Origin: Gammaproteobacteria bacterium
GTDB taxonomy: Bacteria; Pseudomonadota; Gammaproteobacteria; GCA-001735895
DNA length: 48,590 nucleotides
Direction: 5' to 3'
Assembly (NCBI GenBank): GCA_024225395.1
Contig: JAAEMR010000119.1
Location: forward strand, 1-48,590
Shown: piece by piece, positions 41,609-48,550 of the stretch
Position numbering within the stretch: the first letter of the stretch is position 1
How the letters are laid out: the number at the start of each line of letters is the position of its first letter
The notes under the pieces: model-generated
What the model was told of the DNA's origin: nothing
Databases searched by the model: none
Seen by the model: the letters and a program-made list of their open reading frames with translations, nothing else
Made by a program: the position numbers and the translations under genes

Positions 41609-42592
41609 CTATAAGCTCTCATCAGACAGGTCTATTCCATCAATTAGATCATCTATACCTTCATCAAAAAAATCATCCGGTTTAGCAGCCTGTTTTTTGA
41701 CCTCTGCTTGCTGTTTTATATCATCACTTTGGTTGACCTCATCACCCTGGTCGACTTCCAGATGCTCAACCTCCAGGGTTGTTTCCAGTGTGTACTCATG
41801 ATCAGAGCTCTCGTCAACTTTTATCTCATTTACATCTGATTCTACAAACTGAATATCATCAACTGCATTTTGTTGTTGAACAATACCTCTGCCCTGCTCC
41901 ACTGGCCCTGGTTCTATATCAGAGTTCCCGAGATGAGCAATGTCCAGAGTAATGTCTGGAATCTTTATAACCTGTTCTATAATATCTTTACTCTCTAACT
42001 CATTTTCCTTCGCACTCCCGAACTTATTGCCAAATTCAGAAATTATATTACCCATTATCTCCTTGTATATACTTAATTCTTCGGTAAGACGTTTATTTTG
42101 TTCCAGTAAGAGAGCTATCTCTTCCTGAGCTACCTCAGATTGTTCATCATCAGCCAAATCTAATTCAGTATCAGTATCTGCATCTGTATCTGCATCTGCA
42201 TCTGCATCTGCATCTGCAATAGCGGGCGATAACCCTTTATAAGTTTCAATCAATTCAGCCACGCAGGCACCCATACCCACTAATCCATCAGCATCCCGTT
42301 TATGGTAGACATTGATTAGCTTTTGCATAAACTTTTTTTCAGCTTTATCAATATTTTTCACCGCTTTATCAAGATCATTTCCTTCAAAATTATACTTTTC
42401 GCTAAGAAATGACCCTGTTTTTTGCATCCTGATATCCGACTGATTTTTTATTTGCTCAACCAGTTTTTTTATCGCTTCTCTATCTTTATTTTTTCGTTTA
42501 TTAAGGATAAAAACATAGACTGAAATAACGGTCAGTAAGATGACTAATCCTTCAACTAATAATGAGAATAAAACGATAGAAACTTCAATCAT
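41609..42592 (-). CDS. Membrane-anchored acidic coiled-coil protein, DA/DT repeats
   Basis: A 327-residue protein with an N-terminal membrane helix (about 6-30, LFSLLVEGLVILLTVISVYVF), a basic stretch, a helical region to about 120, a repeat of Asp-Ala and Asp-Thr dipeptides (about 127-144), a short coiled coil (about 155-185) and a long acidic tail. It is encoded in part by (TGCATC)n units. I know no family. It overlaps the VWA gene by 8 bp, so the two products are likely partners; most of this one would lie in the cytoplasm. Confidence 0.75.
   Translation of the reverse strand: MIEVSIVLFSLLVEGLVILLTVISVYVFILNKRKNKDREAIKKLVEQIKNQSDIRMQKTGSFLSEKYNFEGNDLDKAVKNIDKAEKKFMQKLINVYHKRDADGLVGMGACVAELIETYKGLSPAIADADADADADTDADTDTELDLADDEQSEVAQEEIALLLEQNKRLTEELSIYKEIMGNIISEFGNKFGSAKENELESKDIIEQVIKIPDITLDIAHLGNSDIEPGPVEQGRGIVQQQNAVDDIQFVESDVNEIKVDESSDHEYTLETTLEVEHLEVDQGDEVNQSDDIKQQAEVKKQAAKPDDFFDEGIDDLIDGIDLSDESL
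42177..42222. repeat. Hexanucleotide tandem repeat (TGCATC/TGTATC)n
   Basis: Seven or eight 6-bp units lie in tandem, TGCATC mostly and TGTATC twice. They encode the Asp-Ala/Asp-Thr run in the acidic protein. Unit length is a multiple of 3, so changes in copy number lengthen or shorten the protein without shifting the frame. Confidence 0.8.
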
Positions 42593-44375
42593 TTACTCCA
42601 CCCTCTTTATCACCCGGCTCATCTTCAAACAATTTAATATCATCTTTTTTGTTGCGTTTTTGCATGAAAAATACCAGGCCAGCCACAATTAAAATGACGA
42701 TGACATTTGCTGCAACGATATAAATAGTAATGTTTAACCAGTCCGTTTCACTCTCTTGTATTGTTTCTTCAACAATTTCAGCGGGTTTATCAACACTGGT
42801 TTCATCTTCTTTTTCAGCTGGATCCGGTTCTTTTTCCGGTTGCTCTTCCAGCTTTACACCCAGAACGACATAATCATCAAGAGTGTGCATTATAGTTTTT
42901 CCGTCAACTGTTTCAGCTGTCATTTTAATCTGGATTTTATATAAGCCATCCTGCTGGTTGGCCAGAACTTTTAACGCTGGTTGACTCCCGGGATTTTTCA
43001 CTTCTACTGGCTGCTGAGTTCCATCCGGTTTAATGAGTAATACGTCCAGCTCCAGAGTTCCAGGTTTAATATACTCATCCCTGCCCATAATACCGAGGTT
43101 ATAAGTTCCGGGTTTTGTTGATTTTTTGATATCCACCTTGACAGGCCATTGGACTTCAATAATAAATCTTTTAGTCCGGGTGAAGGTTCTGGCATCGGCT
43201 TTAACCACAACTTCATGTTTGCCTTCTGCAAGAGGTGCCTTAATTTCCTGCAGGTAGATACCTTTATCTTTTACTTTCCTGGATTTTTTTGGTTGTAGCG
43301 GCAGGTTAGTGATTTTGTCAGCAACGCTATGCTGAAGATTAAAATCAACAAACTTTAAAAAGCTTTTTTTACTGATTTTATTATCTTTGTTATGCAACTC
43401 AAGTTTTAGTTTTAAAGCTTCATCCGGGGTCATATAAGCAGGCAAATCATCGACAATAAGTTTTAACTTTGTCACTATCATCACCCGATTATCATCATCT
43501 ATTTCTGCATCAAGCTTCCATACTCCGACCTGGGGTTTTACTACCGTTATCAGGTCATAACCACTTTCAAAACGCCAACGTACATTTTTGGCATGCTTCG
43601 ATTGCGAGTTATTAACCTTGTCAGGTTGAATTAACGAGGTTTCTTTTTTGCCTTTCCTGAAAACCAGTAACGTCATTTCACTGATACTTTTATCGATAGT
43701 AAAGCTATTGTCTTTAAGCGGAACCGTGTCAGGTTTTGTTGCCCGTTCGAACATGTGGAGGAATATTCGTTGCAAATCTTCTGCAGATTTTGCTACTTCG
43801 AATGAGCCCGCTGTTTTTAGTGCCAGGCGTTTTAACAACACTTCATCAGTTTGATCCGAAAGTGCAATAGTATGAACTTTTATCCCTTTCTTAATCAGTT
43901 CAGGAATTGATTTCTGCAGAACATTTGTACGGGACAGAGCATTTTTAGCCGGATCCTTCGAAATATCCACTTTCCCATCGGTTAGCAGAATCATGTTACG
44001 ACTGGTTTTATCATCCTTTTTCCCCCAGCCTTTACTGGCACGTTTAAGCGCACTTTCAATATTGGTAAATTGCCCTTTGGAATGAATCTTTTTAGCGCCC
44101 TCATCTGCCAGTTGTCGCCAGGTTTCGTTAACGGTTCCCCACTTCACTTCCATATTGACGTAGCGTCCAAATGTCCAGACCCCGGCTTTTGAACCCGTTG
44201 GAATTAATCCATTAATCAGACGTAAAGCAGGCGCACGTAAATTATTAGGATCGGTCTGCTGCATACTTCCAGAAACATCGATCACAATACGAATATCATC
44301 GACCTGGGCAGAATAAAGGGGAAAGGACAATATTAGCCATAAAAGACCATTAAGAAGAGGAGCAGTACGAATCAT
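42585..44375 (-). CDS. VWA-domain periplasmic protein with C-terminal membrane anchor
   Basis: A 596-residue protein: signal peptide (to about residue 23), a von Willebrand factor A domain (about 27-215) with an intact metal site, DVSGSM (D33, S35, S37), the Thr of GQFTNIE near 103 and LTDG near 130, then several beta-rich domains (about 220-510), a Pro/Glu linker, one membrane helix (about 549-570) and a charged cytoplasmic tail. This is a metal-dependent adhesion-type scaffold, mostly periplasmic. Its stop overlaps the start of the acidic coiled-coil gene. Similar proteins occur in marine gammaproteobacteria; the role is not known to me. Confidence 0.85.
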   Translation of the reverse strand: MIRTAPLLNGLLWLILSFPLYSAQVDDIRIVIDVSGSMQQTDPNNLRAPALRLINGLIPTGSKAGVWTFGRYVNMEVKWGTVNETWRQLADEGAKKIHSKGQFTNIESALKRASKGWGKKDDKTSRNMILLTDGKVDISKDPAKNALSRTNVLQKSIPELIKKGIKVHTIALSDQTDEVLLKRLALKTAGSFEVAKSAEDLQRIFLHMFERATKPDTVPLKDNSFTIDKSISEMTLLVFRKGKKETSLIQPDKVNNSQSKHAKNVRWRFESGYDLITVVKPQVGVWKLDAEIDDDNRVMIVTKLKLIVDDLPAYMTPDEALKLKLELHNKDNKISKKSFLKFVDFNLQHSVADKITNLPLQPKKSRKVKDKGIYLQEIKAPLAEGKHEVVVKADARTFTRTKRFIIEVQWPVKVDIKKSTKPGTYNLGIMGRDEYIKPGTLELDVLLIKPDGTQQPVEVKNPGSQPALKVLANQQDGLYKIQIKMTAETVDGKTIMHTLDDYVVLGVKLEEQPEKEPDPAEKEDETSVDKPAEIVEETIQESETDWLNITIYIVAANVIVILIVAGLVFFMQKRNKKDDIKLFEDEPGDKEGGVND

Positions 44376-44611: not shown

Positions 44612-46957
44612 ATGGCAGATAGTGCAAATAAATTAAGCGATTATGACATTACCAATTCCTATGATTTGTGTATCAGGGCATTTCGCACTACGCGCAAGCT
44701 GTTAAAACTGAATATCAAATTACATGACGAATCGCATCAACCTTGCAGTAAAACTGTCGAACAGGGCGATATATTTCTATTCAATCACTTTGCGCGCTTC
44801 GAAACGTTTATTCCACAATACCTGATTTATACCGAAACAGGCAGTTATTGCCGGTCGATAGCGTCAGCCGAATTTTTTAACGATGAACGCTTCGCTCCTT
44901 TTCTGAGGTCAATAGGTGTAGTACCCAATACCATGCCCGACCTGTTCCCTTTTATTGCCAGAGAGATTTTACACGGTCGAAAACTGGTCATTTTTCCTGA
45001 AGGCGGCATGGTCAAAGACAAGCGTGTGGTAGACAATAAGGGTAAATACGGAATTTATTCTCGTACGGCGATGGAGGTTCGTAAACATCATCGTGGTGCA
45101 GCAGTCATTGCATTGGCGGTAGATGCCTTTAAAACGGCATTGCTACGTGATTTTTCAAAGGGTCATTATCATCAGATAGAACGCTGGGCAGAGCAGCTGG
45201 ATTTTGAAGACACTGAAAGCCTGATGATAAAGGCACTAAAACCAACGACCATTGTGCCGAGTCATATCACTTTTTACCCGATCAGGGTCAATGATAATAT
45301 TCTGCACCAGGCCGCCAAACTCTTTAACAGGGGAATCAATAAACGTTTTGCTGAAGAATTGATCATAGAAGGAAATCTACTGTTTAAACACACCGATATG
45401 GATATACACTTCTCTAAACCATTAATCATGGGTAAATACTGGAAGTGGTGGGAGAAAATGTTGCTGCCCAATGTCGTTCACCGGTTTCAATCCATACAAG
45501 AACTGTTTAACCTGACCCCTGCATCAGGACACTGGGGTGGACGTATCCACTCATTGGGCATGCAGGCAAAATCAAACCTGGTACGAGACGACTATATGCG
45601 AGCAATGTACAAAAGCGTGACTATAAACCTGAGCCATATCGCTTCTTATATTATTTTGAAACTATACCGACAGGACATTAAACACATAGGCTGTAAAGAG
45701 TTTCACAAAACACTCTATCTATGCATTAAGGCGATACAAAAAAGTAATGCTTTTTTACATCGAAGTCTGAAAAATCCTCAGGAATATGGACCAGTCATTG
45801 AAGGCGGCAGCAGTAGATTGCAGCAATTTTTAGACACCGTTCAAAAAATGGAATTGATCAGCATCATCAATCAACCCGGTGAAGCGGCGTCATACCATTT
45901 TCACCAGAAATTAATCGATGATTTTCACTTTGATGAAGTTCGTACTGAGAATCTCGTCAGCGTGTATGCCAATGAACTGGCTCCGCTAAAATCGGATACA
46001 AAATTATTAAATACGACAATTAGCCGTATTCAAACTGTCGATGCCCGACAAATTGCTGAATACCGTTATGACGATCAACTACTGGCTTATGAGTGGGATA
46101 AAAAGCAATATGACAAACCCCGGTACGATGAGATCAACAAATTACAAATCTTTACCCAGGATGGTAACTGGTTCCGCTTTTTATCCGCAAAAGAAGATGC
46201 CCCGGCAGTGCTGTTAATTCATGGCTTTATGTCGACACCCGCAGAAATGTTAAGCCTGGGTGAAAAATTTAAAGAGCTGGAATTTAATGTCATCGGCGTT
46301 CGCCTGAAAGGACATGGTACTTCACCCTGGGATTTACGCGACCGCGACTGGAAAGACTGGTCTGCCTCGGTTAAACGAGGATTTGACATTTTATCGGCCT
46401 ATAGCAGTCACATTCATGTTATCGGCTTTTCTACGGGCGGGTTACTGGCATTACATCAAGCCATTGAATACCCCGATGAGAAGCTGGCATCGGTCATCTC
46501 GGTGACTGCACCGGTTGAATTCATCAGTAAACAGATGAAATTCGTCCCGCTATTACATCAGGCCAATAAATTAGTACGCTGGGTCAGCTCAGAGGGGCTG
46601 ATACCCTTTAGACCCAATGATACAGAGCACCCGGATATCAATTATTCACATATTCCCATTCGTGCTTTATACCAGTTACAGAAACTGATCAAACAATTCT
46701 TTGAAAACCCGGCACCCATTTCGTGCCCGGTCACACTCTTTCAAGCTGACCAGGATCCGGTAGTCATACCCAAAAGCGTCGACCAGTTATACCAACACAT
46801 TGATTCAACGGATAAACATATACAGATAATAGAATCACAAAGACATGGCATTTTGTATGAAGATATTGATAATACTCAACAGAAAATTATTGATGCAATA
46901 CTAAAGTTGGAAAACCCAATACAGATAAATCAACAGACTCATGCCAAAAATACTTAA
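44612..46957 (+). CDS. Acyltransferase-alpha/beta hydrolase fusion
   Basis: A 781-residue two-domain enzyme. The N-terminal part has the glycerol-phosphate acyltransferase (PlsC) signature: H59 in NHFARFET (HxxxxE rather than HxxxxD) and FPEG at 128-131. A middle region of about 200 residues is helical. The C-terminal part (about 535-775) is an alpha/beta hydrolase of the carboxylesterase/monoacylglycerol lipase type: oxyanion HGFMST, nucleophile S607 in GFSTGG, D715 in ADQDPVV and H745 in QRHGIL. AAGGA lies 10 bases upstream of the ATG. It may remodel membrane or storage lipids by deacylation and reacylation; the substrate is unknown. Confidence 0.88.
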   Translation: MADSANKLSDYDITNSYDLCIRAFRTTRKLLKLNIKLHDESHQPCSKTVEQGDIFLFNHFARFETFIPQYLIYTETGSYCRSIASAEFFNDERFAPFLRSIGVVPNTMPDLFPFIAREILHGRKLVIFPEGGMVKDKRVVDNKGKYGIYSRTAMEVRKHHRGAAVIALAVDAFKTALLRDFSKGHYHQIERWAEQLDFEDTESLMIKALKPTTIVPSHITFYPIRVNDNILHQAAKLFNRGINKRFAEELIIEGNLLFKHTDMDIHFSKPLIMGKYWKWWEKMLLPNVVHRFQSIQELFNLTPASGHWGGRIHSLGMQAKSNLVRDDYMRAMYKSVTINLSHIASYIILKLYRQDIKHIGCKEFHKTLYLCIKAIQKSNAFLHRSLKNPQEYGPVIEGGSSRLQQFLDTVQKMELISIINQPGEAASYHFHQKLIDDFHFDEVRTENLVSVYANELAPLKSDTKLLNTTISRIQTVDARQIAEYRYDDQLLAYEWDKKQYDKPRYDEINKLQIFTQDGNWFRFLSAKEDAPAVLLIHGFMSTPAEMLSLGEKFKELEFNVIGVRLKGHGTSPWDLRDRDWKDWSASVKRGFDILSAYSSHIHVIGFSTGGLLALHQAIEYPDEKLASVISVTAPVEFISKQMKFVPLLHQANKLVRWVSSEGLIPFRPNDTEHPDINYSHIPIRALYQLQKLIKQFFENPAPISCPVTLFQADQDPVVIPKSVDQLYQHIDSTDKHIQIIESQRHGILYEDIDNTQQKIIDAILKLENPIQINQQTHAKNT

Positions 46958-47153
46958 AGAACCCAAAGTGTTAACTGACTTCAACAATGATGCCGTTTGC
47001 ATACTGCCCATTGGTTTTGATTTAACCGATGATAAATGGAATAAAATCTGGGCATTGCACGAAAAGCTGAATCGATTTATGGGGCATGAAGAATTGCTGG
47101 AACTGTTTCCAAATGATGAGTCGTTGAAGCCTAAGAAAATAAAGCCTAAATAA
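46941..47153 (+). CDS. Small acidic-basic protein overlapping the fusion gene
   Basis: A 70-residue ORF that starts within the last codons of the acyltransferase-esterase (17-bp overlap). It contains VCILPIGFDLTDDKWNKIWALHEKLNRFMGHEELLELFPND and ends in a KPKKIKPK tail. No ribosome site is seen, which fits translational coupling. I know no family; composition looks like real coding sequence. Confidence 0.55.
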   Translation: MPKILKEPKVLTDFNNDAVCILPIGFDLTDDKWNKIWALHEKLNRFMGHEELLELFPNDESLKPKKIKPK

Positions 47154-47253
47154 AAACTGGACTTTAGCGGTGCTAATTGCAATATATCAGTTCTGCTTTT
47201 AACAATACTGACGGGGCTCAATAGCGCCCTGTAAATCTTCTGGAATTAGTATT

Positions 47254-47372
47254 GTGTAAACTATTTACATATTAGGTTAAAAATAGTGTCAGGTTGTTTT
47301 ACAACTGGAAGGAAAAAAGTGTCGAAATTTTTTACAACTACACCGTTACAGAGTTTAGAATTATTTACAAGC
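47254..47372 (+). promoter_or_regulatory. Phased upstream repeats (activator sites) of the PEP-CTERM gene
   Basis: Two near-identical 21-bp repeats, 47286-47306 and 47319-47339, share GTGTC at the left and TTTTACAACT at the right. Weaker copies flank them. The TTTACA cores start at 47264, 47298, 47331 and 47364, a 33-34-bp period, so they lie on nearly one face of the helix. They are well placed for a sigma-54 activator, such as the PrsR regulator of PEP-CTERM systems. Confidence 0.7.
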
Positions 47373-47399
47373 CCAGCTATATCCATGCATATTCAATAT

Positions 47400-47415
47400 T
47401 GGCACAAATGTTGCT
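47400..47415 (+). promoter_or_regulatory. Sigma-54 (-24/-12) promoter
   Basis: TGGCAC (47400-47405), 5 bp, TTGCT (47411-47415): an excellent match to TGGCAC-N5-TTGCW. The predicted start is near 47425, 26 bp before the PEP-CTERM gene's ATG at 47451. A GGGGA ribosome site lies at 47440-47444. Confidence 0.85.
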
Positions 47416-47450
47416 TTTAAAACTATAGATTATTTATTCGGGGATAGAAA

Positions 47451-48455: not shown

Positions 48456-48485
48456 TTGGTATAATCAAAATATATTGCTGGACAA

Positions 48486-48509
48486 AACGCCCCTTCTGGG
48501 GCGTTTTTT
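48486..48509 (+). terminator. Intrinsic terminator of the PEP-CTERM gene
   Basis: AACGCCCC, TTCT loop, GGGGCGTT, followed by further Ts. A strong rho-independent terminator 30 bp after the stop. Confidence 0.92.
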
Positions 48510-48524
48510 ATGGAAGACTTTTTC

Positions 48525-48550
48525 CCGTCTTTTAAAAGACGGTTTTCTTT
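48525..48550 (+). terminator. Second hairpin, possible tandem terminator
   Basis: CCGTCTTTTAAAAGACGG is a perfect 18-bp palindrome (48525-48542) followed by TTTTCTTT. It may back up the first terminator or serve a convergent gene beyond the window. Confidence 0.6.

Follow-up and report, generated by a model that had tools for sequence, protein, structure and literature searches.

Near one end of the window, the 48,590 nucleotides of gammaproteobacterial DNA analysed here as a whole, a gene for a PEP-CTERM-type protein, of a class sorted to the cell surface, is preceded by a -24/-12 promoter and by repeats ending in TTTACA. The locus raises the question of which activator uses these repeats, and whether their arrangement belongs to this promoter or to a regulon. 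A 17-nt motif ending in TTTACA (motif 1) is known together with a sigma-54 motif (motif 2) upstream of proteobacterial PEP-CTERM genes, and was assigned to the response regulator PrsR (Haft et al., 2006; PMC1569441). The phylogenetic profile of the motif matches those of PrsR, PrsK and PrsT, and the spacer between the motif and the -24(GG)/-12(GC) core ranges from 32 to 92 nt with a mean of 62.8 (PMC1569441). The motif was noted to be "sometimes repeated", and the mean spacer was given without helical steps (PMC1569441). The explanation favoured for the window, at a probability of about 0.87, is that it holds the promoter of a single-gene PEP-CTERM operon belonging to a PrsK-PrsR-RpoN regulon, with activation by a PrsR ring predicted as set out below.

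Promoter elements and the downstream gene

The sigma-54 core (TGGCACAAATGTTGC) is a perfect TGGCAC-N5-TTGC in a scan of the window, in which no other site reaches the maximal score. Upstream of it, TTTACA starts at 47264, 47298, 47331 and 47364, in steps of 34, 33 and 33 bp. An earlier interpretation made from the letters of the DNA (the sequence-only reading) had proposed a -24/-12 promoter with two strong and two weak repeats at a period of 33-34 bp, and this description holds in full (Table 1).

Table 1. Promoter elements, gene and predicted hairpins at the PEP-CTERM locus of the window; scores are those of the regulon weight matrix.
Feature	Position	Strand	Details
Weak outer dyad TGTGTAAACTATTTACA, distal	47253..47269	+	Score 11.5; TTTACA 34 bp upstream of the following TTTACA
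Strong PrsR-type dyad (motif 1) TGTCAGGTTGTTTTACA, distal of pair	47287..47303	+	Score 22.2; 96 bp between its 3' end and the -24 core
Strong PrsR-type dyad (motif 1) TGTCGAAATTTTTTACA, proximal of pair	47320..47336	+	Score 22.8; 33 bp downstream of the distal site; 63 bp between its 3' end and the core
Weak outer element GTTTAGAATTATTTACA, promoter-proximal	47353..47369	+	Score 9.5; 33 bp after the proximal strong site
Sigma-54 core (motif 2), TGGCAC-N5-TTGC	47400..47414	+	Maximal score in the window
PEP-CTERM-type protein, 334 aa	47451..48455	+	N-terminal signal peptide by eye; C-terminal VPVPGTIWLMLAGLIGFYKTR
Predicted terminator-like hairpin	48484..48513	+	GCCCC/GGGGC stem, then T run
Second hairpin	48525-48542		Downstream of the gene stop

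The strong dyads are written as 17 bp, TGTC-N7-TTTACA. The weight matrix was derived from 20 regulon sites in this genome, including both strong sites of the window and neither weak one, so that the scores of the strong pair are partly circular. Dinucleotide shuffles of this upstream region give an expectation of 0.0003 sites scoring at least 20, and of 0.20 sites scoring at least 9, per 450 bp; two sites of the higher class are observed, and the strong pair is therefore far beyond chance. The weak outer elements have individually unremarkable scores, and it is unlikely that both stand one period outside the pair by chance (about 1e-5 or less on a rough estimate). Of the better dyads in the window, only those of the 47287-47414 promoter have a good sigma-54 core at an appropriate distance. 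A search of the 4.45-Mb genome for GTGTC-N6-TTTTACAACT without mismatch, which the sequence-only reading had suggested as a way to the regulon, recovered two copies at this promoter (47286-47306 and 47319-47339) and no exact copy elsewhere.

The encoded protein has a tail (NPVPVPGTIWLMLAGLIGFYKTR) of PEP-CTERM type in which the Glu of PEP is not conserved. It falls below the cut-off of Pfam PF07589 (16.6 against 20.7 bits) and narrowly passes TIGR02595 (17.1 bits against a cut-off of 16; 22.1 bits in the genome search), so that the claim of a PEP-CTERM gene at this place is upheld by a marginal match. No orthologue of this protein was present among the fetched loci. The hairpins after the stop codon, together with the end of the upstream open reading frame at 47153, make it likely that the gene is an operon by itself, preceded by a long upstream region, as published for the PEP-CTERM class.

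Elsewhere in the window, a 781-aa protein encoded at 44612-46957 combines an acyltransferase-like N-terminal part (below the Pfam cut-off) with an alpha/beta-hydrolase C-terminal part. The minus strand at 42585-44375 encodes a 596-aa protein with a TIGR03503 match below the cut-off and a von Willebrand A-like start by eye.

Regulators, regulon and the undetected exosortase

The sequence-only reading depended on the presence of prsR and rpoN, and both genes are found in the genome. PrsR, on contig C118, scores ~626 bits on TIGR02915 (cut-off 502.6) and consists of receiver, Sigma54_activat (AAA+) and HTH_8 (Fis-type helix-turn-helix) domains. PrsK adjoins it (587 bits, cut-off 300), and RpoN is encoded on contig C65 (TIGR02395, 476 bits). 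The repeats accordingly have a candidate activator in the same genome, and they appear to be the PrsR sites of the published prediction, as had been claimed (PMC1569441). Several other full-length NtrC-family activators are encoded as well, so that the case for PrsR specificity is built on the published phylogenetic profile together with co-occurrence. The PrsT profile gives only partial TPR matches, all below the cut-off, in this draft of 265 contigs. The end of contig C118 beside prsK carries a short tandem repeat (L069, 3640-3843), a possible cause of an assembly break.

Fifteen PEP-CTERM matches in the genome exceed the cut-off. The dyads lie upstream, in either orientation, of 11 of the 13 PEP-CTERM genes with a usable start, and also precede the gene on contig C160; L080 and L086 are without the motif, the start of L086 being uncertain. 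Nearly all sites scoring at least 18 in the scanned stretches of this genome occur in such pairs, and the same dyad pairs are present in genomes of the same genus and in one of the same family. The expectation that one motif would mark the whole regulon thus holds for these 11 genes and fails for two, and four iterons were rejected as a regulon rule, since in the other paired promoters the outer phased positions score nothing comparable, though the C160 promoter has a third TTTACA. The window promoter alone has the four-element array, and the rule of the regulon is a pair of 17-bp dyads.

Several loci call for separate description. A PEP-CTERM promoter on contig C78 (L252, 13846-14170) carries a strong pair ~300 bp upstream and, in addition, a weaker pair whose TTTACA elements end 63 and 95 bp before the core. 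Dyad pairs without a convincing sigma-54 core occur on contigs C4 and C105. On the latter, a PEP-CTERM gene on the reverse strand (L259, 1-900) keeps its dyads intact, and its core and start codon are seemingly deleted relative to the C160 locus (L006); this loss appears to reflect decay or an assembly error. On contig C90, a probably secreted protein (L253, 7085-7741), whose VPTP tail is without the Glu of PEP, has a paired PrsR-type element upstream and gives only weak matches to PEP-CTERM subfamilies. A UrtA-type promoter on contig C48 fits the loose pattern but has no good dyads; its gene looks like that of a urea-type transporter, and it was treated as unrelated.

Of the system genes named by the sequence-only reading, prsK and prsR are found above their cut-offs, but epsH is not. 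No EpsH-family exosortase was detected by TIGR02602 or PF09721 in this draft genome, which is 98.85% complete, and a PF09721 search of seven further drafts from this genus was likewise negative; six of these seven encode one to eight PEP-CTERM proteins. In this genome the prsKR genes are on a contig of 3.9 kb, and the closest named relative has prsK on one of 3.4 kb; in the next relative, an XrtA-type exopolysaccharide operon adjoins prsKR. Loss of an island of this kind in assembly or binning is likelier than real absence. It is rather unlikely that the genus keeps a full PrsR-RpoN PEP-CTERM regulon without an EpsH-family exosortase and sorts by a different enzyme, against the published PEP-CTERM/EpsH co-occurrence rule. 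If real, the absence would imply an unknown sorting enzyme.

Spacing of the sites within and outside the genus

In this genome and its relatives, neighbouring dyads (at most 60 bp from one another) are spaced by 31-34 bp in 19 of 22 cases and by 21-23 bp in the other three. The strong dyad nearest to the core is at 79-81 bp in 12 of 18 promoters, and otherwise at 69, 90, 91, 101, 112 or 114 bp.

At 80 PrsK loci of other organisms, among them Neptunomonas and Sedimenticola species, motif 1 and the core co-occur 32 times, compared with 0-2 times for each of 12 scrambled motifs; most of the 32 are upstream of PEP-CTERM-type genes. The motif at these loci is mostly single, and a strict matrix scan of all 80 gave no pair at 28-38 bp. 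The distances between dyad and core cluster at ~69, 81, 91 and 122 bp. Their Rayleigh p is ~4e-6 at a 10.5-bp period, with one orthologue group collapsed, the doubtful loci L147, L149 and L164 left out and some kinship among the loci remaining; the vector length is 0.70 with all 32 co-occurrences. A period of 11.0 gives a slightly better fit than one of 10.5, and the period is therefore just roughly determined. Two dyads with a core were found in 9 of 369 genomes in a class-wide search, with mostly single matches outside the genus, and the pair hence does not seem to be a rule for the proteobacteria at large.

The predicted sites of this genus are paired three (rarely two) helical turns apart, whereas those of other lineages are mostly single. 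In both groups the distances from these sites to the promoter differ by multiples of roughly one helical turn (about 69/80/91/101/113). Neither the paired arrangement nor the helical steps were found described in the open-access papers searched. Together they make a sharp prediction for PrsR binding, and the geometry offers a stricter search pattern for PEP-CTERM-like substrates weakly scored by sequence models, e.g., those with the VPVP and VPTP tails observed in this analysis.

Proposed activation, alternatives and related systems

The mechanism proposed for the window promoter is drawn from established knowledge of NtrC-type activators. RpoN-RNA polymerase would wait as a closed complex on 47400-47414, and a signal sensed by PrsK would lead to phosphorylated PrsR. 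As an NtrC-type AAA+ activator with a Fis-type helix-turn-helix, PrsR would occupy the 17-bp dyads as dimers, probably in a cooperative manner. With three helical turns between them, two such dimers would share a face of the DNA and be well placed to nucleate the activator ring. The fixed spacing from the -24 box would bring this ring to a set promoter face, from which it could contact sigma-54 through a short loop. At the window promoter alone, the weak outer elements may aid PrsR loading. No test of PrsR binding was found in the open-access literature searched.

The repeats could in principle be chance or low-complexity AT-rich sequence beside a fortuitous -24/-12 match, and indeed the region is AT-rich and the outer two elements are weak when taken alone. 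This is very improbable given the shuffled background described above, the recurrence of this geometry upstream of about ten other PEP-CTERM genes and the coincidence of both elements at this place only in the window; chance is refuted for the strong pair and is applicable just to the outer two elements. It is also quite unlikely that the promoter is a real sigma-54 promoter with TTTACA repeats that bind another NtrC-type activator or a nucleoid protein, PrsR being a bystander. The other NtrC-family proteins of the genome and the AT-rich dyad would allow it, but the published motif profile follows PrsR, PrsK and PrsT (PMC1569441), and in unrelated lineages motif and core recur close to prsK, upstream of PEP-CTERM genes, at the excess over scrambled motifs given above.

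Activation by PrsR could also take a different form, in which the four-element array is graded or repressive and PrsR on the weak element at 47353-47369, 30 bp before the core, blocks polymerase at high concentration. This element lies near where the sigma-54 holoenzyme footprint is expected to end, and a comparable third TTTACA occupies this place in the C160 promoter, 30 bp upstream of the core. Such a graded or repressive array is unlikely, as the proximal site is weak (9.5) and no comparable score is found there in the other promoters examined.

In tandem enhancers of NtrC type, the activator dyads form a pair separated by about three turns, and a -24/-12 core follows downstream. The window has the same layout, but its dyad sequence and its predicted activator differ. 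The pepA promoter of Aquincola tertiaricarbonis, from a different lineage, shares with the window a PEP-CTERM gene and a -24/-12 promoter; it is RpoN-dependent and has a mapped start site at TGGCAC / CTGCTT and a predicted enhancer upstream (PMC9850573). The closest likeness is to the element of Haft et al. (2006), with which the window shares the 17-nt motif 1 (in two strong copies), the TTTACA end, the sigma-54 core, and PrsR and PrsK in the genome. Its spacer of 63 nt compares with the mean of 62.8 nt and is within the range of 32-92 nt, and its downstream gene is of the same PEP-CTERM class, in a probable single-gene operon and with a marginal match. Unlike the 2006 systems, this assembly is without a detected exosortase and without PrsT above the cut-off. 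Unlike the 2006 element, pairing at 31-34 (or 21-23) bp is usual in this genus, and the window has four elements. The window element is therefore already known in outline, having been predicted in 2006; the pairing and the helical steps are the features for which no description was found in the open-access papers searched.
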